Origin: Terebella lapidaria
Taxonomy: Eukaryota > Annelida > Polychaeta > Terebellida > Terebellidae
Direction of reading: 5' to 3'
DNA: 64,000 nucleotides
Assembly: GCA_949152475.1 (NCBI GenBank)
Contig: OX424570.1
Coordinates: forward strand, 21,882,694 to 21,946,693
Shown here: positions 16,701 through 50,600 of the stretch, in pieces
How positions within the stretch are numbered: position 1 is the first letter of the stretch
Layout of the letters: every line of letters starts with the position of its first letter
Position numbers and translations under genes: made by a program
The notes under the pieces: generated by a model
Seen by the model: the letters and a program-made list of their open reading frames with translations, nothing else
The model's database searches: none
What the model was told of the DNA's origin: nothing

Positions 16701-18877
16701 TTAGACGGGCGCCCACAGGCTCGCTTGAATTTTGGAACGAGGGTGGGACAGCCCGAGGTATCGCAGGGTCCATCACAGGGAGCTGATTCTGTGAAGTACT
16801 CACCTGCTGCGGGGGCGGAGGACTTCTCCCCTGCTGGCTTGGGCTTGCCCTTGTGCTTCGACTTCTTGGTCGCTTTACTGCCGGCAGGGGCCCTCTGAAA
16901 GGGCTTCTTCTCCTTCTTCTCCTTGGACTTGGTCGGTGGAGGCTTGGAGGAAGAGGGGGCGTACGCCTGAAGAGGGGAGGCCAGACGCTTGGCGATCGTC
17001 TCCGTGAGACGCTTACTGGTCGAGACCGACTCCTCCTGACGGGCCAGCTCACGAGCTGCAGGCAGCTTAGACTCTAGGCCGGCGAAGAGAGGTGGAGGAG
17101 AGGTAAGAGCAGCCGCTGCTTCTGGATCTACGAGCGGGGCACAGCGAAGCTCCGTCACCAAGGCCGGGGGAAGCTTGAACCTAGCTTGGCCTAGAAAATC
17201 GTCTCTCCTCAGTAAGTGGAGGACCCACTCCACGTACGTGGACTGCTCCATCCGGTGGGCTGACGCCAAGTCACAAGACTCCAGGAGTTGGGACGCCGAA
17301 CTAAGGTGGTCGCCCAGGGACACTAGCTGAGACGGTGGGGATTCCAGGTCTTCCAGCGCTGTCAAGGCAGACTGTAGTTGGCGGTAAGCCGCAGTACGGA
17401 ACCAGTCCTCCAGGGAGGACACACAGGTGGCGGCGCGGACGGCGTGGTTCAGGGAGAGTAAGGTCTCCGGCTGAAGAGTCACGGGGCGAGCCTTGTCGCC
17501 AAGGTACTGGGCCGCCGCCTCGGGGAATACCGCTGGCTTATCCAGGTAGTCCGGGTTGGATGGGAGGTAGTCCTTCTTGTGGAAAGGAGGCCGACGGGGA
17601 AACTTCCCCAACTCTGTTTTCCCCTGGTCCAGTGTCTCAGAGCGGCGCCGGGAAAACTCCTCGCGGAGCCCGTCCGGGATAGGGAGACCCCGTCGAGGCT
17701 GACGTTCCGGGGAGCGCTGGGATGCCAGCAGCGACGTCGGACGCTTAGACACTGTGGGCTTCGGCTCAGCTGGAAAGAGGGTGGGCTCCAAGGTCGAACG
17801 CACGAGGTCGAGCTTGTGATCAAAGGAAAGGTCCTCCTCTCCCTCCTCACTGTCGGCCGGCTCGGCGTCAAGACGAGAGCGCTTGTCGCTGGGAGCCACG
17901 GAAGCCACGACGGAAGCTGGGCGCTTCCTGGAAACTGGAGCCAGTGGGGCCGAAGGAGTAGGCACATCCTGCCCGCACGCAAGCGACTCTTCCCCAGAGT
18001 CCTCATCAGACTCCTCCCCGAAGATCTCCGCAGGCAACTGCTGGGGAGGCTCCAAGGCCTGAGTACGCCGTAAGGCATCTGACGTGGGGGGAAGGGACAC
18101 ACCCGCGCGGGCGTCCAGGGCTGCCAAAACAGCCGTAACAAGGCTAGCCACATCCATCGCTGGGGCCGCTGGGGGAACTCCAGACGGAGAGGGGGGCCGA
18201 GAGACCACCGAAGAAGGACCTGGCAAGGAAGGCTGGGCCGCCGAGCTAGTCGTCACGGTGAGAGAGGCTGAAGAGGCAGTCAACGCCGATGAACTCTGCA
18301 AAGAGAAAGAAGCGGTAGAATTCTCTATAGAAGCAGCTGTCAACAGCATGCACTCAAGGCTCGGACCCCGTAGGACGGGGGCCAAGCCCCGAGCGGGCAA
18401 CGGCAGGGCAGAAACAGCACTGAGAGTCGAGTGCCGGATCCGCACCCCGGGGCCCGGACCCCGTGGGACGGGGTCCGGGCCCCGTCGGACGGAGCCCGGC
18501 CCCCGTGACACGGGGCCCGGCCCTCGAAGCACGGGGGCCGGCCACTGCGACTGAGGCTGTGCCAAGCGCAGAATACCTGAAGGGTCGGGGTCCGGACCCC
18601 GTACGGGGTCCGGACTCCGCGCCATCACACTAACCAGAGCACCGCTACGACGGGCCACACAAAGCCCCTGGACCGAAGTCCGGGGGCCGGGAACCGAAAA
18701 ACGCGGGAGAACTGGCCAGAAAAGGCGCGGGCGCAGCTGCAGGAACCTGTTCGCCGATAACAGCGGAGGTGACACGCGCAAACAGAATCCCCGCTGACGG
18801 TACAAGAAATACACAGTGAATTGACTCCCGGGGCGTGCCACCGTGGGTCGAGTGCGACTCTCCCACCAGCAGATCAT
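13793..18877 (-). CDS. DIRS gag-tyrosine recombinase open frame (1694 codons)
   Basis: One unbroken frame spans three parts. The N-terminal part is gag-like: low-complexity S/P/A stretch, acidic patch, KRPRS-type basic runs, then a helical region and a lysine-rich tail. The middle part lies opposite the RT frame in another phase and has no recognisable domain. The last 320 or so residues are a tyrosine recombinase. Recombinase signatures are the first arginine in ASGRRRSEIHALD, the His-x-x-Arg box AHDVRAMA, and the catalytic tyrosine in FTSFYLRD. Recombinases of this type integrate the circular element DNA without target duplication. The actual start is probably not the first ATG: a strong acceptor at 18295 suggests the gag body is spliced to the zinc-binding exon upstream. 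How the recombinase is expressed (frameshift, splicing or internal start) is not visible. Confidence 0.88.
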   Translation of the reverse strand: MICWWESRTRPTVARPGSQFTVYFLYRQRGFCLRVSPPLLSANRFLQLRPRLFWPVLPRFSVPGPRTSVQGLCVARRSGALVSVMARSPDPVRGPDPDPSGILRLAQPQSQWPAPVLRGPGPVSRGPGSVRRGPDPVPRGPGPGVRIRHSTLSAVSALPLPARGLAPVLRGPSLECMLLTAASIENSTASFSLQSSSALTASSASLTVTTSSAAQPSLPGPSSVVSRPPSPSGVPPAAPAMDVASLVTAVLAALDARAGVSLPPTSDALRRTQALEPPQQLPAEIFGEESDEDSGEESLACGQDVPTPSAPLAPVSRKRPASVVASVAPSDKRSRLDAEPADSEEGEEDLSFDHKLDLVRSTLEPTLFPAEPKPTVSKRPTSLLASQRSPERQPRRGLPIPDGLREEFSRRRSETLDQGKTELGKFPRRPPFHKKDYLPSNPDYLDKPAVFPEAAAQYLGDKARPVTLQPETLLSLNHAVRAATCVSSLEDWFRTAAYRQLQSALTALEDLESPPSQLVSLGDHLSSASQLLESCDLASAHRMEQSTYVEWVLHLLRRDDFLGQARFKLPPALVTELRCAPLVDPEAAAALTSPPPLFAGLESKLPAARELARQEESVSTSKRLTETIAKRLASPLQAYAPSSSKPPPTKSKEKKEKKPFQRAPAGSKATKKSKHKGKPKPAGEKSSAPAAGEYFTESAPCDGPCDTSGCPTLVPKFKRACGRPSNKLLARVADTRSQPVDRVGPSQGLSHPVQSASCTGYRAYSLFTSWSSRQTVSTLARDRRYAGQKRARESRNFLSRLLQYPVLDSQELRRVAPRDRPVRSKPPCQDPQVRHGDGGIDPLVPSKELLGRLPGSEGRVLSHPDSSGLPQISVLRAPGHRVSVPCPAIRTVPGSMDLHNGGERVTDTRPQGGHPPLPVPRRLDCLSPVSRGSDSALTVGPGLVQTHGFAGQSPEIRANAGPGLRVCRVLVQDTAGYGFSHGGAAVKDTVLTPQILGRAQSVSTDLAVDARVAGSNREVSSLRSTPHAGVTDRPSLPVDRSHGLPSATGRPFSSREGVHTVVDVRYQPHSGLTLPSASSLQASIYGCLYGGLGGTPGLQGSVWGVDRARELVAHQPLRVGGSFPGPGPLGGGVCWSCCPGVHGQLHCRGLHKQTGGYKVRYPVSAGHDASSVVPVSEHSLACTSHPGPVECVGGPAVTQGADPANKVVSPSSGVQFPVPQVGPPYSGSLRDQVEQQASSVCLSASGPPCDVHRRVVHGLGRPVRVCIPSSDSAAQGFGQDQVSHMPYSPGRSIPATAALVPRTSGPVGRSTSGPTPSGRPSQTAPGAAVSQPTREPEPPCVASVQGSLRAKGFSSEVSSRIARPNRNSSLGVYESKWRVFAAWCDGRQVDPFNASAQTVADFLLEKFQAGVAPSTLAGYRTALAKTILPHTGINLGEDQDLSALLNNFKVERPLTRNSVPEWDLSLVLNHLASAPFEPMSSAPLKFLTWKTVFLLALASGRRRSEIHALDFSKVRWREDGLQVSLQVIPSFLAKTQLASSPPLAFTIPALSASVGPNLEEDCLLCPLRALRLYLKRTEGLRAGKRLLFISHQLKFQRDIRSATISSWIQKCIRTCYDLAEQDSACSFKVRAHDVRAMAASLAYMGRVPLDQVMQACSWQSHNTFTSFYLRDLTWTGSEGYHLGPVVAARSVVTP
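14680..16773 (-). CDS. DIRS reverse transcriptase-RNase H-methyltransferase-like polyprotein
   Basis: The frame is open from 17052. The ATG at 16773 is a plausible start after an arginine- and proline-rich leader that overlaps gag. RT blocks include GGWRPVIDLSALNRHV, VVSLDLKDAFFHIPIH, LPFGLSPAPWIF and the catalytic YLDD near 16108-16125. RNase H follows with LFTDAST, INRLELEAVSLAL and the Asp of LVSTDNSTV. The next segment, with TVDLFATRWNNKLPVFVS and WDGLFGYAYPP, matches the DIRS methyltransferase-like (MT) region. The product copies element RNA to DNA. The whole frame overlaps the gag-recombinase frame, offset by one nucleotide. All RT and RNase H catalytic residues visible are kept. Confidence 0.92.
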   Translation of the reverse strand: MDPAIPRAVPPSFQNSSEPVGARLTNYWQEWQTLGASPWIVSVLRRGFRIQFSQRPALATEPIPFSLPGAHARRLALSLEIADMLAKNALEKVGISSPGYYSILFLTPKSSGGWRPVIDLSALNRHVKTPKFAMETAESIRLSLPKNSWVVSLDLKDAFFHIPIHPVSRKYLCFVHRGTVYQFRALPFGLSPAPWIFTMVVKELQILAHKEGILLYQYLDDWIVYHQSPEVLTRHLQWVLDLCKRMGLLVNLQKSELTPAQDFVFVGYWYKTQLGMVFPTEERLSKIRSLLRRFLDEPSQSAQIWQSMLGLLAATEKLVPYGRLHMRELQIDLRSQWIAATDCPQQPVVLSPAGKASILWWMSATNLTQGSPFRQPPPSKHLFTDASTEGWGAHLDFKEVSGVWTEPESSWHINRLELEAVSLALAHWEEECAGRAVLVSTDNSTVVAYINKQGGTKSVTLCRQATTLLLWCRSRNIHLRARHIPGRLNVLADQLSRRGQIQPTKWSLHPQVFSSLCLRWDRPTVDLFATRWNNKLPVFVSPLPDPLAMSIDALSTDWDGLFGYAYPPAILLPKVLAKIRSHTCRILLVAPYQPQRPWFPELLGLLVDQPVALPPRDDLLKQPRAQLFHSRPASLNLHAWLLSRDPFAQRDFLQKCPVGSPALIETHPWESMSLNGESSLLGAMAGRLIHSTPLLRQ
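18296..18866 (-). other. Candidate spliceosomal intron in DIRS gag, with GC-rich palindromic repeats
   Basis: On the minus strand a pyrimidine-rich tract ending CTTTCTCTTTGCAG lies immediately before 18295. A possible donor CTG|GTGGGA lies at 18866. Both are in phase 0 with the zinc-binding frame upstream and the gag frame downstream, so splicing would join them. The interval holds repeated GGGGTCCGGACCCCGTACGG-like palindromes (18355-18390, 18445-18545, 18585-18620). Introns are known in some DIRS elements; this one is a prediction. Confidence 0.5.
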
Positions 18878-19220
18878 CCGCGGAACAAAACAAAGAGGAA
18901 GGGGAAGAAAACTTAGCTTCTAGGCAAACCAGGGTACGATCCAGCTTGCCCAGCAGGGCAGAAGTCTTCCTCTCCTGACGGCGGCGAGGCTTGGCCGACG
19001 ACGCGGAAGATGAAGAGGACGGGGCTGAAGACACTTGATGGGACAGCTTGTCTCTCCGTGCGAGAACAGCTCCAAGAACCTGCCCCCACTCCTCCCGCGA
19101 ACGGTCCGCACACAAACCGCACGTAAGTTGATCCGTATGCACCGGGTCCTGGCACGCAATACACTCTAAGTGTACTTCCCACGACGGAAGCTGCTGCCCG
19201 CACTGAGCACAGCGGCGCAT
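18645..19220 (-). CDS. DIRS gag N-terminal zinc-binding segment
   Basis: Translation from the ATG at 19220 begins MRRCAQCGQQLPSWEVHLEC and continues with further Cys pairs (IACQDP, CGLC). This gives a C-x2-C ... H ... C-x2-C ... C-x2-C pattern like the N-termini of DIRS ORF1 proteins. A serine-rich and basic stretch (PRRRQERK) follows. The frame overlaps the start of the gag-recombinase frame by about 230 nt and is offset by one nucleotide. It is probably the first exon of gag rather than a separate gene. The upstream part of the frame (19331-19221) is hydrophobic and lies toward the ITR, so is unlikely to be translated. Confidence 0.7.
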   Translation of the reverse strand: MRRCAQCGQQLPSWEVHLECIACQDPVHTDQLTCGLCADRSREEWGQVLGAVLARRDKLSHQVSSAPSSSSSASSAKPRRRQERKTSALLGKLDRTLVCLEAKFSSPSSLFCSADDLLVGESHSTHGGTPRESIHCVFLVPSAGILFARVTSAVIGEQVPAAAPAPFLASSPAFFGSRPPDFGPGALCGPS

Positions 19221-22769: not shown

Positions 22770-25132
22770 ATGGCGTCAAAGGCAAACCACACGACCAACA
22801 ACAGCACTCTGGCCACTGACAGCTACACGACCCCTGTACGAGTCAACAGACATCAGATAGCTGATCAGGACCAGGCCAGATCGTTGAAGAAGTTACTTCT
22901 GATCTACACGCTACCAGTGGCGGTCCTAATACTTCTGCTCATGGGGCTCGTGGGCGTGAACTTTTGGTACACGTACCAGCTGAGCAGCTCCGTAGAGAAC
23001 ACAGCCCGTGAGGTCGAATCTTTGAACACAATGATTCAGGCAAGTAACCAAACACTGGTGAATCATGATGCTAATGTGAGAGATCAGTTGGAGGCGATAG
23101 CACACCAATTAAAATGCGGTGAGAATTCTTAGGACACCACATAACTTTTTTTTATCGTTGGTGCTATTCAATATATTGTTGGGGGTTGTCAATATACACA
23201 GTAGCTACACCATGACGCCTTGAATTTATCCCCGAACGATAAATACATAACAACCAAAAGTATTTCATTGCCCACAATAAAAAATAATTACGGTGATAAA
23301 CATTATTTGACTCCAATCATCACGTAAGGATAAGCTATTTGACTCAAATCATATATATTTACTTGTTAAAACAATAAGAACATATTCAAATGTTTCTGTT
23401 GTAATCATCCATGATTTCGGGGATCGAGAAAGCTTTAATATTCCAATCGTGTTACAATTACATGAGCTTGCTAATAGCAAATGAATGACCACTTTCACGC
23501 TTTGCCAAATTAACCCTGCAAATTTCTAAAGTGACCTTTCTGACACTCGGATTATTATTTTGTATAGATCATGGTGTTTGTAAGTTATTTTACAATGTTT
23601 TCATATATATATATTATAGAAATAAAACACTTCACTGGGGAGTTCCTGTGGTATTCCGTTTCTCTTCTATCTCACAGATGTTGATGAGTGCGCAGAGAAT
23701 CAGGCAAACTGCGACGAAGGCTTTTTTTGTGTCAACACCTGTGGCTGCTTCTGCTGCCGCAGACCAGCAACTGATCCAGCCCCACCAGGTAAACTCAATG
23801 ACCTCACAGAGTAGAAACTCCACCTCATAAGCATGATGACCTCATACAGTAATAGCCCCACCTTATAAGCATGGTGACTTCATACAGTAGCAACCGTACC
23901 AAGTAAGCATGGTGATCTCATACAGTAGCAGCCATACCAAGTAAGCATGGTGACCTCATACAGTAATATCCCACCTTATAAGAATGGTGACTTCATACAG
24001 TATTAGCTGTACCACTCAAGCATGGTGATCTCATACAGTAGCAGCCATACCAAAAAGGCATGGTGACCTCATACAGTAGCAGCCGTACCACGTAAGCATG
24101 GTGATCTCATACAGTAGCAGCTGTCCCACGCAACATGGTGGTCTCATACAGTAGCAGACGTACCTCGTAAGCATGGTGATCTCACAAAGTATAAGCCGTA
24201 CCACTCAAGCATGGTGCCAGCCCCATCAGATAAAAATGCTTGTATAACAGTAGTGTGGCTCATATATCTTTACAAGTATGTGTACAAGCAGTTTGTGCTT
24301 TCTCATTTGCAGCCTGTTCTGGTCAGTCTGACATAGTGTTCGTTGTGGACTCCTCTGGGAGTATCAATGAATATGACGACCAGAACTGGAATAGACTTCG
24401 GACCTTTATGTCAAATGTGGTCAACAATGCTCGGCTGACTATTCGCCAAAGCCATGTTCGAATCGGTATCGTGGTCTACAGCAACAATGCTAGAATCGAC
24501 TTGCTGCTTCGCGACAGTGGCGATGCCCAGCAGGTGTCAGATGTCATAGGCGACCTGGTGTATGATGGTGCCACAACCAACTTAGCTGCCGGGTTAGAGC
24601 TGGCAAGGACGCAAGTCTTTTTGGCCAGCGAAGGGGATCGGGCCAATGCCAACGACGTCATCATTCTGATATCAGATGGCAAGCCAAACGAACGTGAAGA
24701 GGATACAATTACTCAGGCACAGGCCACGAAGAATGCAGGCATCAGAATCGTCTCCGTCGGCATCACCGATCAAGTCGACGAGGCTCAGATGAAGCAGATA
24801 TCCTCTGATGGCAAACTCATCTCGGCTACCAGCTTTCAGGACCTTGATTCCATCATCAGTGACCTCATTGACCAGACCTGTGGGGATCCATCAGGTAGTG
24901 ATTGGTATACATGTATATTATCAGCCATATTGGACCCTTTATGATTTGAGCTACGGATATCAGAAGCCCGTCTATGAGTGAATATGGATTTTTGCAGATA
25001 TACACTCTTTACATAGATATATCCATGACAATGTACACATACACAATTCATCTCAGTAGGATGCAAATGAACCCTGATGACCACACATATGAGGATTGGT
25101 GACTTTGTGTTGCAGGAGGAGCGCTGGCCTAG
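22770..25132 (+). CDS. VWA-domain type II membrane protein, array copy 2
   Basis: Exons are 22770-23118, 23678-23788, 24313-24894 and 25116-25132, about 352 residues, all phase-1 joins. Exon 1 encodes NHTT/NNST glycosylation sites, one transmembrane helix and a helical stalk. Exon 2 starts DVDEC like a calcium-binding EGF domain but is short and ends in a cysteine cluster (CGCFCC). Exon 3 is a VWA domain with intact MIDAS (DSSGS, TTNLAAG, ISDGKPN) and is nearly identical to copy 1. The TAG after GGALA is shared by all copies. In the alternative frame of exon 4 this copy has an extra stop before the hydrophobic stretch. It is likely a cell-surface adhesion or recognition protein. Confidence 0.82.
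23800..24225. repeat. 38-bp minisatellite, about 10 units (copy 2, intron 2)
   Basis: Units follow GCATGGTGATCTCATACAGT plus AGCAGCCGTACCACGTAA with variants such as 'caaccgtaccaagtaa'. The array sits between EGF-like exon 2 and VWA exon 3, as in copy 3, where it is about seven times longer. Confidence 0.9.
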
Positions 25133-35600: not shown

Positions 35601-38600
35601 GTAGCAGCCTTACCACGTAAGCGTGGTGATCTCATACAGTAGCAGCCGTACCATGGAAGCATGGTGACCTCACATATTAGCAGCCATACAACGTAAGCAT
35701 GGTGATCTCACACGGCATCAGCCATACCAAGTTTGCATGGTGATTCATATAGTAGCAGCCGTACCACATGAGCATGGTTACCTCACACAGTAGTAGCCGT
35801 ACCACATAAGCATGGTGATCTCATACATTAGTAGCCGTACCACAAAAGCATGGTGATCTTATACAGTAGTAGCCATACCACATAAGCATGGTGACCTCAT
35901 ACAGTAGCATCCATACCACATATGCATTGTGATCTCATACAGTATCAGCCATACCACGTAAGCATGGTGATCTCATACAGTAGCAGCCGTACCATGTAAG
36001 CATGGTGACCTCACATATTAGCAGCCATACAACGTAAGCATGGTGATCTCACATGATATCAGCCATACCAAGTTTGCATGGTGGTTCATATAGTAGCAGC
36101 CGTACCACATAAGCATGGTTACCTCATACAGTAGTAGCCGTACCACATAAGCATGGTGATTTCATATAGTAGCAGCCGTACCACGTAAGCATGGTGATTT
36201 CATAGAGTAGCAGCAGTACCACGTAAGCATGGTGATTTCATGGAGTAGCAGTCATACCACATAAGCATGGGAACCTCATACAGTAGCGGCCGTACCATGT
36301 GAGCATTGTTACCTCATACAGTAGCAGCCGTACCAAGTAAGCATGGTGATCTCATAGAGTATCGGCCAGACCACTTATGCATTGTGAGCCTTACCACGTA
36401 GGCATGGTGATATCATACAGTATCAGCCGTACCACGTAGGCATGGTGACCTCATACAGTTGCAGCCGTAAGAGTAAAACATGGGGCGCCTAACCATGTAA
36501 GCATGGTGACCTCATACAGTAGCAACCGTACCCCGTACAATGTAAGCATGGTGACCTCATACAGTATCAGCCATACCATGTAAGCATGGTGCCAGCCCTG
36601 TCAGGTAAAAAAGCCTGTATCACGGTAGCTTGGCTTTAGGTTGTATCTGAATATTCACAGAGTGTGTGAGCATGTTGACTTTGGTCTACCCACCAAATCA
36701 TGAACATGTCTATAGCAGCTTGTGTTTTCTCGCTTGCAGTGTGTTCTGGTCAGTCGGACATTGTGTTCGTTGTGGACTCCTCTGGAAGCATCAATAGGGA
36801 TGACTCAGACAACTGGGGGAGACTTCTGGAATTTATATTAGATGTGGTCAGCAATGCTCGGCTGACTGTTGGTCAAAACCATGTTCGTATCGGTGTCGTG
36901 GTCTACAGCGACTATGCCACGATCGAATTGTTGCTTCGCGACAGTGTCGATGTCGAGCAGGTGTCAAATGTCATACGCAACCTACCATACATTAATGGCA
37001 GAACCAACATAGCTGCCGGGCTAGAGCTGGCGAGGACGCAAGTATTTCTGGCAAGCGAAGGGGATCGGGCTAATGCCAACAACGCCATCATTCTGATATC
37101 AGATGGCATGCCAAACGAGCGTGAGGAGGAGACAATTCCTCAGGCACAGATGGCAAAGAATGAAGGCATCAGAATCGTCTCCGTCGGTATCACCGATGAA
37201 GTCGACGAGGCTCAGATGAAGCAGATATCCTCTGATGGCAAACTCATCTTCGCTACCAGCTTTCAGGACCTTGATTCTATCATCAGTGACCTTATCGACC
37301 AGACCTGTGGGGATCCATCAGGTAGTGATTGCGGTATATTATCAGACATACTTGGACCCTTTATGATTTGATATATACATTATAAAACATATCTATAAAT
37401 AAATATGGGCTTCTGCGGATATAAATTATATACACATATATATATAAAAAGACAAAACTAGGTGAGTGTGTTTTCCAGCACGCGGAAAAGATCGAGTTTG
37501 AACTGGCGGAAGAATACAAGAGAGCACGAGACCGAATGTCGAGTGCTTTCTGATGTTCTCCCGCCAGTTCAAATGAGATCTTTCCCGTGTGCTGAAAAAC
37601 ACACGAAACAGGTTTTGTTTTTATCACATGCTATGGATTTATGATCCTGAAATATTTGAAAACCCAACACATGTAAAGTAAAGTGAAATTGTACCAAAGA
37701 TTGCAAGAACTTCATAAATCTTTGATTGCACTCAAGGACCTCTTCTACTCATGAGTAGAAGACCCGTGAACATGTGCGTTGCTAGGAAACAATATAAATG
37801 TAAGTATCAATCTATTACCACCAGGGGCGAGTTCGATTGGACGACGAATTTGTCGGTTTGTCAAAATGGTCAATTTGGATCCAGCCGAACTCGTATGGTT
37901 TGACCTGGATTTGTCTTCGTGACGTCAGAGCGACCAACGAAAAGTGCCGCCGCCTTCAACCTGCGGTGGGATTAGTCAGTGCACAAACCATCATGGCGTC
38001 GCTCAAAAACTCGGTGTCGAGCGGTAAATCTGAGTAAGCATAAACTGTACTATTGATGTCCGTATCGGGCTTGTGTTCTTTCGCATGAGTACAATACCCA
38101 AATTTACGTTTTGTACATTGTGAGTTTAATCGAGTGCCCCGCCGACATAACCATATGAAGAAGTTTATAACAGTTTGTCACTCATTATCGCTCACCCCCC
38201 CCCCCCCCCCAATTCCCGCCCCGGGTCATGTACTCACTCTCCGTGTCACGGGCGTGTGTAGCCTACTACTTATACAGTAGTGGTTATGTTTTGCTGAATG
38301 TTCTATATATTCATTGAGGATTAAAGACGCGAGATGATTAAGCCAAGCGGGACACTGAATATCGGGGATGGGATGTCAAGGGGCAAAAAAAAATACGACT
38401 AGGCCTGTAGATCAATGCGAACAAATTTTGTATCGTTCAATAGGTTTTGTCCAGTAGAGATTTCATGGCCGTAACCGAATAACTTAGTGTTGGTTTTACT
38501 AGTTAGGTCTATTATTGACCTCAATAAAAATAGTCAAGATATGAAACATTTATTATTGGGCTCAACAAGGTAAATGTTCTGTCCAGTACAGAGTTCATGG

Positions 38601-41600
38601 CTGTAACGGAATAAGGTAACGTTAATTATACCAGTTTTAATCAGTCTATTACTGACCACAGTAAATATAGCCAAGGCCGGAAACATTTTTGATTGGTCTC
38701 AAGCAAGGTTAAGGTTCTGGTCAGTAAAAATTTGATGGTTGTAGTAATACAGGTCATATTATGAAATAAGTTAACAACAATTTCTGGCAGTTGAGCCTAT
38801 TAATAGTTCGGGGGTAACAGGGAAGATAGGGCTGCGGGGGGGGGGGGGGATACACCCCAGCGGTCGTTGGCGCCGAGAGCCTCTAGTTTATAAGCACTCT
38901 GATTGTTGAGATGGACTATTGAAACATTTGTTTACAGCTGTTCTATGTTATTCAATCAATATGGATCCATTCTGATGATATAAGCATACCTGTCAGGTCA
39001 GGGTGAATACAACAAGTAACATATTCATTACTTTGATTCAATTTCAGCCTCTCAGCAGAATGTATGAGGATTCAACTGAAGTACAGTGATGGCCTTCTGT
39101 TAAATTGCGAAGTTTCTGAAAATGTCATGCTGCAACTTCAGAACTCAGGTACAGCAATCTATAAATCATTTCATCGAATAATGTTAATAAATTGGAATGA
39201 TAGACAAGATCTTTGCTTCGTTTAATTTAACAGGGTATGGTAACTGAAATAAAGTTTCTTTGGAATAAGATTGAATTTGAATGTATCACACATGCCGGAT
39301 TTTTGGTAGTGCCCTAATTAATTCAATTAGTGATTACATCGCCTTTCAGAGCAACGAGATAAGGTGATGGAACATATTCGTCGAAAAGTTGAAAGGCAGG
39401 TTGGTATCAGTGTTAAGCTGATTTTGTGTAATGATATGTTCATGGGATATGGTACTATTGGGAGGATTAAATGGAACATAAAAGATAATGCCACTTACCA
39501 GTGTTTTTTTTTCAACAATCCTATAGCTACATAGCTATAGGATCGTCGGTAATATGTCAACAATAACAGCACCACATACATTCATGTCTCATAGATAAAA
39601 AGTAGTATGCAATGCATAGAAACATTACCATGTTTTGTCCCTTAATGCTATGAAAAGTAAATTGATCATGTTCTGACTAATGGAATTCACCACACAATTA
39701 AAATGTGTGTCCTGTCTTGCAATTCCACAGGCAAAACCAGTGAACCCACTCCCATGGCGGTGTCACCCGAACCCACCCCCAGTACAAGTAGCAACTCTGC
39801 AGCTGCTCCAGACACAGATGACAGCCTTCAGAATAGTGGTACGAGAATATCCATGAGATTTATGTTAGATTTTCTGGAAGGAGCTACTGTACTGAGTTGA
39901 TTAGATTTCTCTTACTTCATCCGCATTATGTCTATTAGGGTTTCAAACATTTTGAGATTTTGCTTTTCATTTTTTCTAAAAAAACGGTGTTTCTAAATAT
40001 CGAGTGTTTTTGATCCACTGGTTTAAATTGCATAGTGTGCCTTTGTTTTATCAGGATACATTTGGATTGAACCAACATATAAGACTGGTTTGAAAGCCTG
40101 GATAAATCGAATGTTGCCAGGCGCCACTTATGAATTTATAAACAGCAGCCACGATGAGGACCTTCTGAAACTAGTCATTTATGGAAACCACCACAGCCAT
40201 GTTGTAGCTACTTATGCTTGGCTATGTGACATACCAGGGGAAGGGATGTGGGACTTAGTTAAAGCATGTGATTGTTTCAAAGAGTATCTCCGGTGGTGGA
40301 AGAGTGAGAATTTTGTGCTGCAAAAATCCATGCCTTTCAGTAACGTTTAGTTTTGCTTGTTTCCAGGGGTCTCTGAAAGTGATCAGTCATGTACAGACAG
40401 AACAGGACACATTTGGTCGGAGGATGAAACTAAACTCCTGATAGAATTACGCTTGGAGAAAGAGGAAGCATTCAACCAAGGGAAATATTCTCACGACAAA
40501 CTATGGGGACAAATATGTGATTGTATGGCTGCCAAGGGTCATAGTGTCAGAGTGAAACAGGTCAGGGATAAGTGGTATGCCTTAAAGAAAAAATGGCGTG
40601 AAGTTGTCGATCAAAACCACCAGACAGGCAACTCAAGAAAAATCTTCAAGTTCAAGGATATCTTCGACGAAGCGTATGGAACCAAAGCCTCAACCCGTCC
40701 AGTATTCTCTATAGACAGTGGTAAAATTAACAGTTCTGAATGTGAGGATGATGATGTAAGCAATGATGGTGACAACACAAGTACTGATGTACAAGGGAAA
40801 ACAAATAAGGCTCCAGCTAGAGCTGTTCAGAAACGTAAATCCAACACTGACAAAATGGTTGAAATTGTGGAGAGGATAGATTCTCGTTCAGAAAAATTCC
40901 AAAATGATATGCAACACATGCATGATGACAAAATGGCCCGTTTAGATCGGCTCTTGGACATTTTGTCAAAGAAATAAGTCCTGTACATATACAAGTATTT
41001 GTTCCATCTCCTGAGTGGTAAACTGACCATTTACAAGTTGTCCTGTTCTGTACTGAAATGACTGATCACTTGTATCTATAGGTATTGATTACCATTGTGC
41101 TTTGTTATTGTTATTCAATCTCATGACATATCTGTACCCATATCACAATTATTTGTTTCTGCAAAAGGTTGCCATTATGTTGTATCATACATTCTGAACA
41201 AGAGAAGTCACACGATATATTCCTAAATCTTTGTGTTTGTAATTTTGTACATTGTGAAGCTACGTAACCGGTAATTTTAATATTGATTGCCATTTTTTAT
41301 ACACATGACATATCAGTATTCAGTACTAACATTTGTTTGCCACCATATGGTGATATTATGTTGTATCGTATGGCAAGTAGAGATGTCATGCACATGAGAT
41401 CTTTGAGAAATGTGTGGGTTTCATTTTGGTGGAACTACTGGTAATCTCGATCTTGTTACTCGTCATCTTGTAATTTTGTAAAAGTGATGTACCAATACAT
41501 GTTTGTTTGAACTTTCATTGATGCAATGACAGGTATACTTGATCTTGTGATTGTGCTAATTGTCATAAGTGAAGAGGCTCATCTTCATTTATGTGATTTT

Positions 41601-44600
41601 TGGTTACCTTTTCAAATATTCTAGTCAGGAACTTTGGTTTCAGTGTCTAGTCTGTAAGTTTTTCTCTTTTTTCCACAAATAAAACTGTTCCAGTTAGCAT
41701 GTGTTTTTATTTCCCTTCATGTCGAAAAATAACTTTGGAACACTGATATATACCTGCAAATGCAGTTACCACTTGTACACATATGAAGTTCAATGAAAGC
41801 ACATAATACCTCACACATACATCACATTGTTATGTTTAGTGAAACAATCGCAGTAGTTCGTCTCGCTTATCAACTCCACTAATTCCTGTACACAGGTGGG
41901 TGGTTGTTAGGATGTAAGAATCAATCTATTACCACCAATACAGCCAAATTTTGATGATACCAATAACAAACGTAAAACACAATATTTTGCAATAGAAACA
42001 AAGCCCGACCAAATACTTTATCAGAAGACACACTGGCGTCATCAGGGGCAGACAGTGTGGTAAGTGTAGTTGTTTCTACTGTACACCTGATGGGATTAGC
42101 ATACAACTGCCCAACAACCTATGAAAATAATTTAGAAATCCGAAACAAACCCATGGAATAGATATATGAAAAGTACATAAGTACCTTATCACAAGCCAAA
42201 AGGCTACTGAGTTGATGGTATCCTCGGGGACAGACTTAACGTCCACCAGCAGTGACACCGGCTCAGTGGTATGAATGTAAGAATCAATCTATTACCACCA
42301 ATACAGCCAAATTTTGATGATACCAATAACAAACGTAAAACACAATATTTTGCAATAGAAACAAAGCCCGACCAAATACTTTATCAGAAGACACACTGGC
42401 GTCATCAGGGGCAGACAGTGTGGTAAGTGTAGTTGTTTCTACTGTACACCTGATGGGATTAGCATACAACTGCCCAACAACCTATGAAAATAATTTAGAA
42501 ATCCGAAACAAACCCATGGAATAGATATATGAAAAGTACATAAGTACCTTATCACAAGCCAAAAGGCTACTGAGTTGATGGTATCCTCGGGGACAGACTT
42601 AACGTCCACCAGCAGTGACACCGGCTCAGTGGTATGAATGTAAGAATCAATCTATTACCACCAATACAGCCAAATTTTGATGATACCAATAACAAACGTA
42701 AAACACAATATTTTGCAATAGAAACAAAGCCCGACCAAATACTTTATCAGAAGACACACTGGCGTCATCAGGGGCAGACAGTGTGGTAAGTGTAGTTGTT
42801 TCTACTGTACACCTGATGGGATTAGCATACAACTGCCCAACAACCTATGAAAATAATTTAGAAATCCGAAACAAACCCATGGAATAGATATATGAAAAGT
42901 ACATAAGTACCTTATCACAAGCCAAAAGGCTACTGAGTTGATGGTATCCTCGGGGACAGACTTAACGTCCACCAGCAGTGACACCGGCTCAGTGGTATGA
43001 ATGTAAGAATCAATCTATTACCACCAATACAGCCAAATTTTGATGATACCAATAACAAACGTAAAACACAATATTTTGCAATAGAAACAAAGCCCGACCA
43101 AATACTTTATCAGAAGACACACTGGCGTCATCAGGGGCAGACAGTGTGGTAAGTGTAGTTGTTTCTACTGTACACCTGATGGGATTAGCATACAACTGCC
43201 CAACAACCTATGAAAATAATTTAGAAATCCGAAACAAACCCATGGAATAGATATATGAAAAGTACATAAGTACCTTATCACAAGCCAAAAGGCTACTGAG
43301 TTGATGGTATCCTCGGGGACAGACTTAACGTCCACCAGCAGTGACACCGGCTCAGTGGATTTTCAACCTGGTCCATGTCGATGAAGTCCTGGAGCTCCTC
43401 GTCAGAAAGTATACATAAGTTGTGTAATATGCATCCTGAGTATATGGTCTTGCAGACTCCTTCAGCATTGTACACGTAGATTTCCCTCAAACGACGAAAG
43501 CGTCCTTTGACATGCGCGAAGCACCGCTCGACAGCTTGCCTCATTGATGACAGAACACTGTTAAATGCTTTTTGTTCCACTGTCAAGTGACCATTGTCCC
43601 GAAAAACTGTTATGAGCCACCATGTTAACGGATAAGCAGAGTCTCCAATGATAAATTTTCCTGCAGAGAATCCTTCACCAACTTGTGCTTTCTGATATAG
43701 ATCACTGTTTCTGAGGACTCTAGCATCATGTGTGCACCCTGGCCAGCCTGTGTAGGCGTGAGTTATCAGCATTTTGTCGTCCACCACAGCCTGTAGAGTG
43801 AATACAACAATTGATTAGCTCACTGCTAAAAGTGACTTGAAAAACAGTGGGGTTTTTTTGTAACAGTATTTTTTTATCAAGAAGCGAAAATTATGCTTCT
43901 GAATTATACTAATATACCTGGAGCTGCATGGACGGATAACTTTTCCTGTTGATATAATCCTGATCGCGTCCAATGCAACCTGACAATCGAACGTGCGTGC
44001 CGTCTATGATGCCAACTACCCCTGGAGTTGCGTGCTTCGCTTGGAATCTGTCAGAGATTTGTTGTTGCTGTGCAGCATCAGGCCAATGGATATACTACAA
44101 TAAATGTGTTTACAACATTACATTAGCAGGCGTGAAACTGTAAAATAATTATAATGCGATTAGTTGGTTACTGTTGGTTTTAACATTAACTTTCCTTGCC
44201 AGTAGACTTACGTGTGCAAGTTTTGTGCAGAAGACATTCAAAACTTGGTTGATAATTCCATGAGTGGTAGATTTTGATATGCCAAAAGTATGGGCCACTT
44301 GCCGCACGCTTTCTTGATTTGCCATATACCACACGAAGCAAAGTAATTTCTTCATGGGAGTAATTTCTTCTTTGCCACCAACATGATCGGAAACAAGATA
44401 AGCTGCCGTAAGGTTCAATACATATTCGAATGTAGATGCAGACATTCTAAAATGAAAGCGAAAGTCATTCATACTGTATTGTGGTACCACTTCTTCAACG
44501 TATCCTGTGATTTTTGGAACACTGTCTCGACGTGTCAGCTGGGTCACTGATAAGATACACGTTCTTACATAGTTTTGATATATCAATATATTGGTGATAT

Positions 44601-47600
44601 CGGAGTCATCACATATTTCTTCAAAGAACAGCAAGCTCAAGGCATCCATTTTGCTTGACTAAAGCCGACAAAAGTGGCGTTCGATTGCCGTCAAGACTGC
44701 GCATGCGCAATCGATATCACTTAGATCTAACTTCACATGGTCAAATTCGTCGCACAATCGAACTCGCCCCAGTATTGCAGATCAGCGGGTTGTCAAATAC
44801 TTTGTAATATGACGTCACAGTTGTACGTTTTCTGCGTGGTTATTATGTTACTAAGGCTGAATCGCGTGAAGTTTCATTGTCACGTCATAGAACACTCGTG
44901 CTTTTATTGTTGTTTCACATCAAGAAAAGTGCATGTGAGTAGTATGGGGGGGGATTTGGGCCCATTTTTGGCCCGCTACGTGTGGCACCTGCCTTGGGTG
45001 GATGGCATACCTCTGTCACCCCTCGAGGTCATTGTCTTCCATTGTTATAAATAGAGGCAGGTGAGAAGCCTGGACTACATGCCGTATCCCCCTCAATCCG
45101 TGACACCATCTGCTTCCCATGCAATGGAATGTCGGGCAATACCTCCGTAACATTCCTTATCCCCTGTGGGGCATGACTCCCCCTGCGCCTATTTACAAAC
45201 GGGACAATGGGGCATCTGCTCTGCGTAGCGTCCCCCACCTGACTCGTCGCACCACCTGTGTCCTCCAATCGAATGGTCCAATAGGATACCTCAGCCGGGA
45301 AATCCATCCACGCTTTTACCATCTGCCCCACGGCGGTTTGAGCAAAGTTTGACCTAGTTTTCTGGGGCTTAGGTTGACCTAGATATGACGTCATAGGCAC
45401 CTCCAAATATGGGCATGTGTCATAACGTTCGCCATTTACTCGTCATAACGTACCCATAAATGTTTGGAATATCATAACGTACCCATAAATGTTTGGAAAA
45501 TCATAACGTGCCATAAATGTCTGGAAAATCATAACGTACCCATGAATGTTTGGGAAATCATAACGTACCCATAAATGTTTGGAAAATCATAACGTACCCG
45601 TAAATGTTTGGAAAATCATAACGTACCCATAAATGTCTAGAAAATCATAACGTGCCCAAAAATGTTTGACAAATCATAACGTACCCATCAATGGTTTGGA
45701 AATCATAACGTACCCATCAATGGTTTGGAAATCATAACATACCCATAAATGTGCAGAAAATCATAATGTACCCATAAATGTCTAGAAAATCATAATGTAA
45801 CCAATAATGTTTGGAAAATCATGTATTCATGTATTAATTTTTGCAATATTTTTAAACATTTTTTAAAATAAATTTTCCTTTTTATGCCAATTATCATATT
45901 ATCATAAAAGCATCATATTAAAATGAGTCTATGCCATTTTCTTAGTTTTTTTATTTCACACCACACGTCTACTATATATACAATTTCTACACAATGGACT
46001 ATACAGGTACTACTTTTTTTGGAATTTTGCAAATTTGTATTTTTTGGTTCGCTAAACTACGCTTGCACAAAAATTATATACACTTATCATGACAGATATG
46101 AAGTAGGGTTCATTAATATTCAATGTCCTCATCCATGGAGTCCTCTTCTCCCGGCTGAACGACATCATCGAATAGATGATTGAGTTTCTCCATTGACAAA
46201 TTCAGCGCTTCCTCGAAGTTGGCTCCCCGTCCCATGTATTTTTCCACAGCTTCCGTGATTTCCATGTGGATCATGCTTCTTTGCAACAAATGGCTCATCT
46301 TTACCATGGTTTTGTACATTTCCATCAACCCCGTCTTCATTTCCAGTTTCACCTCATCTTCGGGCAACTCGGGTGTATATTCCATGACGCGATGCAGCAG
46401 GTACTCGAAGGCCGTTTCGCATACGCCATGGACCTGGAATCTCTTGCATCCATTTCGGAACCAGCTTACGAGTTGATCGAACCCATCATGTTTCATCATG
46501 ATAGCCATGTTAAGCGCATCCTTGAATGTAGCACCTCGCGCTCTGTATTCTTCAACCGCCTTTTCAATTTCAGCATGAATCCGACTTCTCTGGAGCAGAT
46601 GGATGCAATTCGCCACTCTCTGGTATGCATTAATCAATTCTTCTTTCGTTTTTTGCGCGACCTCCTCTTCTGGCACTTCTTTTTCCTCAATTTCGGCCTG
46701 AATAGACTTTAGCATGCGTTTGAAGGCGCTTTCGTCCATTTTTCTGGGGAACTCGTCTTCCGATGACTCGTCATCGTATGCGGGACATTTCGGCAAGTGC
46801 ATGTGTAGCTCGTAGTCACTCGAAAACAGCGCTCCGCAGCTGAAACATTTCGCTGTCTTGTCCGACTGCCATCCCATGGATTTTGTGATACTTTGAGATG
46901 CTGCGGGCTGGTCCGGAGCTGGGCTCTCGTTAGACTGACTGGGAAGGGGGTTCGGTCTGAGGCGTTTATCTTCCTGCGTTGTCGGTTTCAGGTCCACGAC
47001 GAGATGTCCGTAGGGCTTTGAGGTTGCTCTGTCGAACTCTTGAAGAAACTTTTGGGGGCAGGCGGGATACATTTGCCTGGCCAGGGTCACGATTTGCTGC
47101 TGATCGATAGGGTTTCTGAACAGAGTCAGATAATGACAGTTTCTCCTCTGAGTCGGGTCTTTGCTGTAGTAGAGGTTTTGATTCAAGCAAATGACGCTCA
47201 GGTTCCGGTGGTGGCTCCCTTCCGTGAACAAGTCCGTAATTCTCGGATCCTTGGCGGAAATAGACATGAGGTCGTCCAGAACGATGACGTTATTTTCCAT
47301 AGGTGAGACGAAGTCATCAGAATCCAGATTGACAGGTATCCCCTGTATGAACTGCACGGGAGGCTGAACAGTAGACCTTATGATGCCGTAGAGGGGTTGC
47401 CATCTCTTGTACAGCCATATGATCCTGGTAGGGGCGGGGAATATTTGACCGGACTCCAAGAGGGATTTTACCCAAGCTGTCTTCCCACAACCAGTAGGTC
47501 CTGACACGTTCAGGGTGAAGGGGTGTTGAAATACCAGGGGGTCAATATAGTTGACGGACCAGTGCTTTTGCGGCTGCTGTGGCTGAGGCTGCCAAGCCTG

Positions 47601-50600
47601 AGGCTGCTGAGGATGAGGCTGTGGCTGTGGCTGCCAAGCCTGAGGCTGCCAAGGCTGTGGCTGTGGCTGTGGCTGACGCTGAGGCTGAGGCTGCCAAGGC
47701 TGCGGCTGAGGCTGCCAAGGCTGTGGCTGAGGCTGAGGCTGAGGCTGAGGCTGAGGCTGTGGCTGAGGCTGAGGCTGTGGCTGAGGCTGTGGCTGAGGCT
47801 GAGGTTGAGGCTGCCAAGGCTGTGGCTGAGGCTGAGGCTGCCAAGGCTGTGGCTGAGGCTGAGGCTGAGGCTGAGGCTGTGGCTGCGGCTGAGGCTGTGG
47901 CTGAGGCTGAGGCTGTGGCTGAGGCTGAGGCTGTGGCTGAGGCTGAGGCTGTGGCTGAGGCTGAGATGGATAATCCATATGGTGCAACTTTTGATGTCTT
48001 CTCAAGTCTTGCGGCCAATTATATGTCTTGTGGCAGAGAGCACAAGAATTCATGTTGCCTCTTCAACGTCTTTTCTTGGAATGACATTCTCCAACTGATA
48101 TCGCCGCTTTTATACTCTTCAGAACCACTTCTGATGTATACTTCAAAATGATGTCTTCCCTTGCTTGATCAGCAACTTGGCCCGTTCCACCGTCTGTTGT
48201 GTAGGTGAAACCAGTTTCACTTGAATGGGTTCAGTTCGTTTCTCCCTGATGGCGTGACTCTTTTTTTCTTTCTTTTCCTGTTGATATTTCTTCCACGCAT
48301 CCACTGCGGGAAGGTATGGCTTGAGCGGCATGTTGATGTCGATCCTTCAGCGTCCGAAATGCGAATGAGAAGATAGAGCTCAGTGCAAAGACTTTAGTTT
48401 TCTCCTTTGAAATGCTCGATTCTGATTGGTCCGTTCGAATAGGGGGGACGCCATTGACGTCATAATTTACCTAGCCTATTTTGCGACCGCCTATTACTTA
48501 ATCACCTACTACATGACCTATCACATATCCAACTATAACCAACGGGACCACGGGACCTATAACCACCAAATCTACGTGATGTATAACCACCGCTTGCCCA
48601 TATTTGGAGGTGTCTATGACGTGATATCTAGGTCAACCTGAGGTCCAGAAACTAGGTCAAGCTTTGCCCAAAAGATGTGCATTTAAAATTTCAACAATAG
48701 AAGAAAACGCAGATTTCACACTTTTACACACTTTATTAATATCACTACTACACAAAAATCTAGTACACTCGTGGTGGGAAATAGACATATGATAAAGACA
48801 AAATTCGGTTATATACATTATAAATATTGGTATGTATCAATGGAAAAAAATTTTTTTACAGCTTTGAAAACTCGAATGCAACAGAGTTGAAGAGGAACCA
48901 AAATTCGTTTTCATTATTGTCCATTTCTTTGACGTCTTTTTCACAGAAGTTCGCTTTGATATCGTCCAAGGGAAAATCTCCGAGTTCGATCTCGTCCCCT
49001 TGTCGTCCGCACCGCTCCATGACAGCTCTGTAGAATTTCACCACGTTGTCATCTTGAATTTGCGCCACGGCTGCGTCGAGGTATGTTTCCACCAGACTGT
49101 CCCATCCCCCCAAACACCCGAGCATGTGGTCGAACTGACTGGGAGAGTCGATTTGACAGGCTTCGCAGTCCTTCTTGGCGTTTTCGTTTATCGCGTCCTG
49201 CACTAGAAACAGAAAGATATTCTTGAGCCAGACATCGCGTGACGGGAACGAGGCCTGCATGCTGGATATTATGGGCTCCTCGTCCTCGTTGCCGTACTTG
49301 GCGTGGTGGCCTCGACACTCCTTTTCCGTGAAGAAAATAAACTCCGATGTACCTTCGGAATCAGCCCACATGTATTTCTTACATGGCAGGTCTTCCGTTT
49401 TCCTCTTCTTGAAGGGTGGCCTGTTGGTTTGCATCCCTCTGCGCTTGGGGGCCTTCGAAAACTTCTCAACGACCTCGGCGAATTTGTCCCACTCGCAGAC
49501 GTTGAGATTGATTCTGCTCGCGTAACGTACCCCGTCTTTTTCTCTAGATACGAGTAGGCACGCATACATCTTCCCCCTGAATGTCTCCACGTCGATTCTG
49601 GTGGTCGAATCCAGCACCACCCCGAGTTCTTTTTCTCCTTTCATGGCGTTGGAGATCTCAGTGATGTGCCTACCGATCTCGTCCATAATGCGGTCGCTGA
49701 GATTGTGCCATCTCGGAGATTTCCCCCCCGTTCTCGTCAGCTTGAAGTAGGGTCCGTAAGTGCCTTCCACCCTAGAAAGAGTTAGACTGTCGCTGAGATC
49801 CATGTCGAAAATGTCGTTGCTGCTGCGTCCGCATTCGGAATAATTGTGAAGGTTCTGTCCGCCACTTATATATACCCGGCTCGGCGTGGGCACGCCGTGG
49901 GGCAGATGGTAATAGGGTGGGTGGATTTCCCGGCTGAGGTATCCTATTGGACCGTTCAATTGGAGGACGCAGGTGTTGTCACGGGTCAGGACAGGGACGC
50001 TACGCCGCCGAGCGATCCTATTGGCCCTTTCGAGTGGAGGACGCAGGTGGTGCCACGGGTCAGGTGCGGGGGACCCTACCCCGACCAGATGCCCAATTGC
50101 GAATAAACGCGGGTGGAGTCATGCCCCACAGGGGATAAGGAATGTTACGGAGGTATTGCCCGACATTCCATTGCATGGGAAGCAGATGGTGTCACGGATT
50201 GAGGGGGATACGGTATGTAGTCCAGGCTTCTCACCTGCCTCCATTTATAACAATGGAAGACAATGACCTCGAGGGGTGACAGAGGTATGCCATCCACCCA
50301 AGGCAGGTGCCACACGTAGCGGGCCAAAAATGGGCCCAAATCCCCCCCCATACTACTCATGTGAATGTGTGAAATGTGAAGCAAAAATGTGAAAAAAAAA
50401 ATAGTGCAAACATGATGTTTCCGGCAAAGGTTGTCACACTGTCGGAAATCACTGTGTGTTCCTACTGTTTGTGGTTTGAGATAAATTCATAGCATCTGAT
50501 AAATGACAACATACACACTGTTTCTCAGTAGAATGCAAATGACCCTTGATGGTCACACAGATAAGGATTGATGACAATGTATTGCAGGAGGAGCGCTGGC

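Follow-up and report, generated by a model that had tools for sequence, protein, structure and literature searches.

A 5.4-kb Polinton-like element of the annelid Terebella lapidaria, probably one copy in a family of Polinton satellites

Introduction

Polintons (also called Mavericks) are 15-20 kb long and carry genes for PolB, an integrase, a protease, and capsid proteins. A stretch of 64,000 nucleotides from the annelid Terebella lapidaria (contig OX424570.1, positions 21,882,694 to 21,946,693; called the window here) contains an element of 5,420 bp that has Polinton-like ends and only three genes, encoding an ATPase, a protein named PC4-like, and a protein of 62 amino acids (aa). This raises the question of how such an element spreads. 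An earlier note, made from the sequence alone, proposed either a satellite of Polintons or adintovirus-like agents that brings its own packaging motor, or a separate small family with terminal inverted repeats (TIRs). We find that the element inserts as Polintons do, is present in many copies, and has an ATPase and a PC4-like gene with relatives in Polintons. It is probably one copy in an old and successful family of Polinton satellites. Searches of the open-access PMC literature, a scope that excludes subscription papers and Repbase, yielded no description of non-autonomous or satellite Polintons of animals, as judged by titles and abstract openings.

Structure of the element and its copies

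The element lies between two copies of CATGTG and has the termini AGTAGT...ACTACT, reading AGTAGTATGGGGGGGG at its left end (44938) and ...CCATACTACT at its right end (50357). The AG...CT termini, TIRs of 400-470 bp, CATGTG duplication, and three same-strand genes described in the earlier note were confirmed at 44938-50357, and the genes for the ATPase, the 62-aa protein, and the PC4-like protein are all on the minus strand (Table 1). The TIRs are approximately 400-465 bp long and differ at two positions within their outer 240 bp. Their outer pair (44936-45203 and 50092-50359, of which the outermost two bases fall outside the element) is 96% identical and their inward pair (45198-45335 and 49893-50030) is 83% identical. 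The arms of an inner inverted repeat are 90% alike. This inner repeat, an array of 29-bp repeats at the left end, and the doubling of the C-terminal domain of the ATPase go beyond what had first been noted. The G+C content of the element is 48% compared to 39% in either flank.

We searched the genome of T. lapidaria (761.6 Mb) and read 25 elements with both ends, including the one in the window; these are the elements closest to the window TIR and may be unrepresentative. Perfect 6-bp duplications flank 24 of the 25 (L014 was scored as perfect with its end set at ACTACT), and the duplication of L025 matches at five of six positions. There are 23 distinct hexamers among the 24 perfect duplications, with GGTGGA common to L015 and L022. 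AGTAGT/ACTACT-type ends with long TIRs are characteristic of Polintons/Mavericks. Because the other copies show the same ends and 6-bp duplications, a chance origin of these features is excluded. PMC8097293 describes an (AGT)2//(ACT)2 motif and 6-bp duplications in vertebrate Mavericks, matching the ends found here.

A genome search with the ATPase protein gave 98 near-full-length matches at 89-100% identity, counting those with at least 89% identity over at least 187 of 197 residues and leaving out fragments and lower matches. These include 15 inverted pairs and so occupy at least 83 places, some of which may be segmental duplicates. The matched ATPase core is free of stops in 95 of the 98. 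These copy numbers are lower bounds, since the best 150 of 441 candidates were scored in the ATPase search and 40 of 59 in the TIR search. The further copies with these TIRs and genes and the reproduced 6-bp duplication on which the earlier proposal hinged were both found, and the idea of a separate small TIR family is true insofar as the element propagates as a family of its own.

The ATPase and PC4-like genes occur together in 15 of the 25 elements, and 14 of these also have the 62-aa gene, which was not found in L029. The PC4-like frame is broken in L026 and L031 and lacks its ATG in L021, and the gene is absent from L011 and L024 (2/25). Six elements (L012, L013, L014, L017, L018, and L025) are palindromes, each with a pair of ATPases that read outward, and some of the frames are broken. 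L022 is a gene-poor derivative of 2 kb, and L023/L034 is a 9.9-kb copy in which foreign DNA replaces most of the PC4-like gene. Across the genome the PC4-like gene is less common than the ATPase, with approximately 17 copies at 97-100% identity, three of them partial.

Some repeats were seen within and outside these elements. At C11:31706908-31902766 a tandem satellite piece consists of ten same-orientation fragments that contain only ATPase residues 92-197, four of them spaced 1.24 kb apart. The palindromic L018 has two tandem copies of its left 1.7 kb, and an identical run of 15 bases precedes the start of each. The right TIR is doubled in tandem at one end of L015, L026, L029, and L032, possibly a trace of copying slippage.

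The ATPase gene

The predicted ATPase comprises a C2H2-like finger, a Pro/Gln repeat, an A32/IVa2-type P-loop core (approximately 46958-47573), a second finger, and the duplicated C-terminal domain. In Pfam it matched Pox_A32 weakly (21.8 bits, below the cut-off of 22.8) and IVa2 also weakly. The protein family supports the packaging type named in the earlier note and a predicted membership in the A32/FtsK-type packaging family.

Protein searches yielded 391 relatives of the ATPase out of 568 candidates. Among the 120 relatives listed, the named organisms are bivalves except for one bacterial metagenome-assembled genome (MAG), four proteins have a protease-like ending, and at least five have an integrase/chromodomain ending. 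Pfam analysis of five such joined relatives found rve in P0064, a chromodomain in P0059, a protease in P0094 (above cut-off) and P0038 (below cut-off), and neither in P0116; some of these joins may be gene-model artefacts. In L001, a contig in the MAG of a Bathymodiolus symbiont that we take for DNA of the host and not the symbiont, the ATPase adjoins PolB fragments. Scans of viral contigs with the ATPase and with a Polinton capsid gave no relatives.

In the T. lapidaria genome itself, locus L041 contains an rve integrase followed by an ATPase with 67% core identity to that of the satellite, and then a facing frame. Other Polintons of this genome have ATPases that are 35% (L036), 33% (L037), and 38% (L039) identical to the satellite ATPase. 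In a quick tree of 91 of the 120 listed protein matches and seven satellite sequences, the seven sampled satellite ATPases formed one clade with 99% support in the Shimodaira-Hasegawa-like approximate likelihood ratio test (SH-aLRT). The duplicated C-terminal domain is missing in 22 of 22 aligned relatives and, by eye, in L041. The own-genome ATPase list includes only three L041-type loci (68-69% identity across approximately 185 residues), compared to 98 satellite ATPases. Other loci of this genome have ATPases that are 70-80% identical and may represent either satellites in decay or Polintons of closer kinship.

The PC4-like gene and the 62-aa protein

The PC4-like, single-strand DNA-binding type that the earlier note had suggested found no support as a fold assignment. 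The protein had no match in Pfam, PHROG, or PDB, and two AlphaFold models had predicted local distance difference test (pLDDT) scores of 36 and 42, too poor for a fold search; the PC4 fold is thus unsupported. Protein searches with the PC4-like protein and with the 62-aa protein found no relatives.

An end gene in a PolB-bearing Polinton family (L043) encodes a protein with 62% identity to the PC4-like protein. The T. lapidaria genome contains 21 stop-free copies at 60-63%, and 17 of them sit less than 14 kb from a PolB match, as judged from the PolB matches near PC4-like loci. At 16 of the 17, every nearby PolB faces the PC4-like gene; at the other (C9:12070232) a second PolB does not face it and is probably part of a neighbouring element. 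In a group at approximately 30% identity, three of five PC4-like copies are near a PolB and facing it. The PC4-like gene of L043 adjoins the element end, and the DNA there is 73% identical to that of the satellite over 1,082 bp. This is followed by 166 bp at 80%, the satellite counterpart of which is found upstream of the 62-aa gene.

The presumed Polinton end next to the PC4-like gene in L043/L044 is AGTAGTTAGGGGGGCACTTT, and we take AGTAGTTAGGGGGGCACTTTAGG for the L044 end of the L043-type Polinton. In the comparison of TIRs to those of Polintons called for by the earlier note, the first 40 nt of the L044 end resemble the satellite end in a gapped alignment made without a control. The whole TIRs of the satellite and this Polinton, of which one end and the PolB C-terminus were read, differ, and their subterminal DNA is 73-80% identical. 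Homology between the PC4-like protein and a 219-aa protein encoded at the end of Polinton L035 was considered and is not claimed (26/2000 shuffles, single-sequence hhalign 2.7%, no small-profile match at E 10). Inverted pairs of PolB or PC4-like matches 12-15 kb apart were seen at C16:15682539/15694430, C1:2934797/2946534, and C17:27762159/27777456, and larger Polintons may perhaps form palindromes too.

Two patches of the 62-aa protein, PxVDxW+K and PTxQxVxRAK, are present in the same order in a basic protein of 140 aa from Polinton L037, the gene for which sits between presumed capsid genes. Scores as high were reached by 2 of 5000 shuffles, or by 1 of 5000 using the first 95 residues. The 62-aa protein is probably the counterpart of the N-terminal part of this basic protein, without the basic tail.

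Missing genes and Polintons of the same genome

Tblastn searches (E 1e-3) of the window element and L010-L034 gave no match to a capsid, minor capsid, protease, integrase, pX, or PolB, with four frames from Polinton PolB regions as the PolB queries. A major capsid gene of its own, such as virophages have, was likewise not found with a Polinton capsid gene as the query, virophage capsids themselves not being queried. As far as these elements show, the family lacks genes for replication and integration and yet has spread, as a helper-dependent satellite would.

Several of these genes are present in Polintons of the same genome. An rve integrase is found in L036 and L041, and similarity indicates one in L037 and in L039. 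L036 also has a protease just below the Pfam cut-off and a presumed capsid gene, and a capsid was recognised by similarity in L037 and L039. The L045 piece contains only the C-terminus of PolB. The TIR ends of three pairs of Polinton pieces were not found, nor was the end of the C2 Polinton located.

The left-end array

The 29-bp array consists of 12 units with up to eight mismatches. A CG core is present in 9 of 12 units and TTTG in 9 of 12, and TTTG-N11-CG occurs at six places in the window element. The copies keep the array at their left ends with 9-13 units, and one arm of L022 has six; L022 retains a TIR and array at both ends together with a perfect duplication. No such array was found in seven Polinton pieces scanned. 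In adenovirus the TTTG-to-CG spacing is N8. Because the spacing differs, we treat the likeness of the array to adenovirus as an analogy. According to PMC5033970, adenovirus has AT-rich repeats close to its left end, in which the CG motif is bound by the IVa2 protein and the TTTG motif by L4 22K, the partner of IVa2.

Selection, recombination, and the palindromic class

The ratio of nonsynonymous to synonymous change (omega) was 0.177 for the ATPase (17 sequences, synonymous divergence (dS) 0.105) and 0.156 for the 62-aa gene (20 sequences). These sets excluded ATPase frames without the HPFT motif or shorter than 300 aa and 62-aa frames of other length. Both genes are thus under purifying selection. 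Removing PC4-like frames without the start motif left five, and omega was recomputed for this gene with 13 full-length satellite copies. Between the window PC4-like gene and that of Polinton L043, omega was 0.25 at a dS of 0.94.

The window element and the palindrome L012 differ by two synonymous changes in the ATPase (compared over no more than 363 codons, as the L012 frame is incomplete) and 11 in the 62-aa gene. The reverse was seen for the class-A elements L015, L016, L019, L020, L026, L027, and L028, with 41-49 in the ATPase and none in the 62-aa gene. These opposite distances indicate that arms of the elements have recombined.

All six palindromes have one common centre, a single-copy stretch of approximately 90 nt that GCGTCC and GGACGC delimit and whose flanks are inverted. 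The window element contains the same stretch and 6-bp inverted repeat (48446-48451 and 48350-48355) without the inversion. Fold-back at this repeat while a single strand was being copied would explain the junction. Because the junction is shared and the 62-aa genes have diverged, the data point to one founding event followed by spread of the palindromic class. In the genome search, 15 of 15 inverted ATPase pairs read outward, suggesting that this class is common; six centres were read.

Discussion

How does an element with three genes spread? We infer from the sequences that the satellite uses a helper and is packaged. A full Polinton in the same cell would supply integrase and protein-primed PolB, the helper PolB would start at the similar (AGT)2-plus-G-run end, and the helper integrase would insert the satellite. 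Strand-displacement copying may have folded back once at the 6-bp inverted repeat, giving the palindromic class. The satellite ATPase would recognise the 29-bp array near the left end and drive the small genome into a helper capsid, and the 62-aa protein could be the link of the satellite to the particle. The lineage appears to be old and not a set of recent deletions, because the seven satellite ATPases sampled form one clade and purifying selection has acted. The satellite reading of the earlier note survives both outcomes that were to refute it: the 6-bp duplication recurs at other insertions, and the copies look unlike internal deletions from a single full-length Polinton. The name PC4-like is unsupported as a fold assignment.

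Several results weigh against this reading. The homology of the 62-aa protein depends on a single Polinton protein, that of L037; its similarity to the L036 protein is weak (178/2000 shuffles in local alignment, 50/5000 in global alignment, and 244/5000 with the first 60 residues), and the basic proteins of L036 and L037 do not match each other significantly (1332/5000 shuffles). We found no full Polinton with the same TIRs. The element DNA gave nothing significant against L035/L036, L037-L040, and L042, and similarity to the L043/L044 Polinton was confined to the outer 40 nt and to some of the subterminal DNA. The facing frame of L041 is read as PolB from a motif seen by eye, with no match to Pfam or other PolB frames. 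The PC4-like gene seems to be missing from most ATPase copies (approximately 17 close copies against 98) and several ATPase frames are broken. Omega for the PC4-like gene among the 13 satellite copies was 0.38 with few changes (dS 0.013), and constraint looks relaxed among recent copies, with two synonymous and four nonsynonymous changes between the window and L012 and none and three between the window and L024. Little constraint in recent pairs is, however, expected of transposons once inserted.

One alternative is a non-autonomous transposon of the Polinton kind that never enters a particle. Helper polymerase and integrase would copy and insert it in the nucleus, and its genes would serve replication or expression. 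The ends, duplications, copies, and palindromes need only helper replication and integration, and L022, with ends and array alone, has a perfect duplication of its own. Against this, the ATPase belongs to a packaging family, the probable relative of the 62-aa protein is on the capsid side, and both genes are under purifying selection, leading us to consider this alternative unlikely. A second, which we regard as very improbable, is an element that interferes with Polintons, its decoy motor and tail-less core protein harming the helper and being kept because host or satellite benefits. The lack in the 62-aa protein of the basic tail seen in its probable relative from Polintons, the extra domain of the ATPase, and the three L041-type ATPase loci listed against 98 satellite ATPases are consistent with it, but the argument is drawn from sequence comparison and is compatible with satellite life, so that both can hold. 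Least probable of all are recent internal deletions from a single Polinton with no satellite life, for although the genes have Polinton relatives, right-arm DNA aligns at 73-80% with a Polinton end, and loci with 70-80% ATPases exist in surroundings that were not read, the nearest relatives of the ATPase clade (67%) and PC4-like gene (62%) among the Polintons read are distant and at separate loci, the duplicated C-terminal domain is missing in 22 aligned relatives, dS to the Polinton PC4-like gene is 0.94, and many copies have open frames.

The satellite reading has a bolder form, in which the element is a true satellite virus of Polintons that takes over helper capsids with its own motor, array, and tail-less core protein, and in which the palindromes are an inherited lineage of what elsewhere are defective genomes. 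We hold this form tentatively, at somewhat less than an even chance. If true, it would be indirect evidence for DNA-filled particles from animal Polintons; PMC8097293, on vertebrate Mavericks, states that particles have not been observed. A packaging-type motor kept under purifying selection without a polymerase, integrase, or capsid is what is expected if packaging matters. The satellite makes the Polinton virion question testable, by asking whether satellite DNA is protected in particles, and in the palindromes the genome would have kept traces of a linear molecule that folded back while it was copied.

Comparison with known systems

The satellite shares with Polintons/Mavericks and adintoviruses the AGT...ACT ends, long TIRs, 6-bp duplications, a packaging ATPase family, an end gene also present in PolB-bearing Polintons, and, probably, a small protein of the capsid side. 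Unlike Polintons, it is 5.4 kb long, lacks PolB, integrase, protease, and capsid genes, and has the left-end array and a palindromic sister class. Virophages of the mavirus type are also small DNA parasites that can integrate and that apparently rely on a second DNA virus. However, virophages carry their own capsid genes, and mavirus also a polymerase and an integrase, whereas the satellite has no match to these and would have an animal Polinton as its helper. P4 and the phage-inducible chromosomal islands (PICIs) are satellites of bacterial phages that likewise lack a capsid and much else and keep genes acting in packaging; they differ in being bacterial and having unrelated proteins, and packaging of our satellite is a proposal. 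SYREC is an adenovirus genome that is palindromic for the left end. The adenovirus packaging domain and SYREC resemble the satellite in AT-rich left-end repeats with TTTG and CG and in duplication of the left end in palindromes, but the spacing is N11 in the satellite and N8 in adenovirus, the satellite palindromes are inherited genomic copies, and binding of the array would be by analogy. Non-autonomous DNA transposons such as miniature inverted-repeat transposable elements also have ends that are moved in trans and gene-poor derivatives such as L022; most satellite copies differ from them in keeping a long open ATPase frame and a record of purifying selection.

Coordinates and neighbouring sequences

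Table 1. Features of the satellite element, in positions of the window
Feature	Position	Strand	Remark
CATGTG target-site duplication, left copy	44932..44937		
Left TIR	44938..45335	+	Begins (AGT)2, then G run
Inner inverted repeat, left arm	45337..45415	+	Includes TGACGTCA and CCAAATATGG
AT-rich 29-bp repeat array, 12 units	45442..45817	+	Candidate packaging signal
Packaging-type ATPase, 646 aa	46113..48053	-	
62-aa protein gene	48143..48331	-	
Segment on promoter side, edges are the 6-bp inverted repeat GCGTCC/GGACGC	48350..48451		Palindromic-class junction
Segment with 80% identity to L043:1516-1672, in the subterminal DNA of a PolB-bearing Polinton	48425..48590		
Inner inverted repeat, right arm	48595..48672	-	
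PC4-like gene, 315 aa counted from ATG	48856..49803	-	Polinton end gene, fold unproven; TATATATA at 49867
Right TIR	49893..50357	-	Final letters ACTACT
CATGTG target-site duplication, right copy	50358..50363		

Pieces of a Myb/SANT protein and a DDE_Tnp_4 transposase at 40351-40977 and 43293-44658 probably belong to a Harbinger-type element, which stops approximately 280 bp short of the left end of the satellite. A retroelement on the minus strand (13793-18919) has RVT_1 and RT_RNaseH within the frame 14683-17073. An overlapping frame of 1708 aa had no Pfam match and ends, by eye, in a tyrosine-recombinase-like stretch, giving a DIRS-like look. Three alike frames on one strand (7538-8227, 24234-24944, and 36679-37371) are likely a local gene family, and the first of them contains a von Willebrand A domain.

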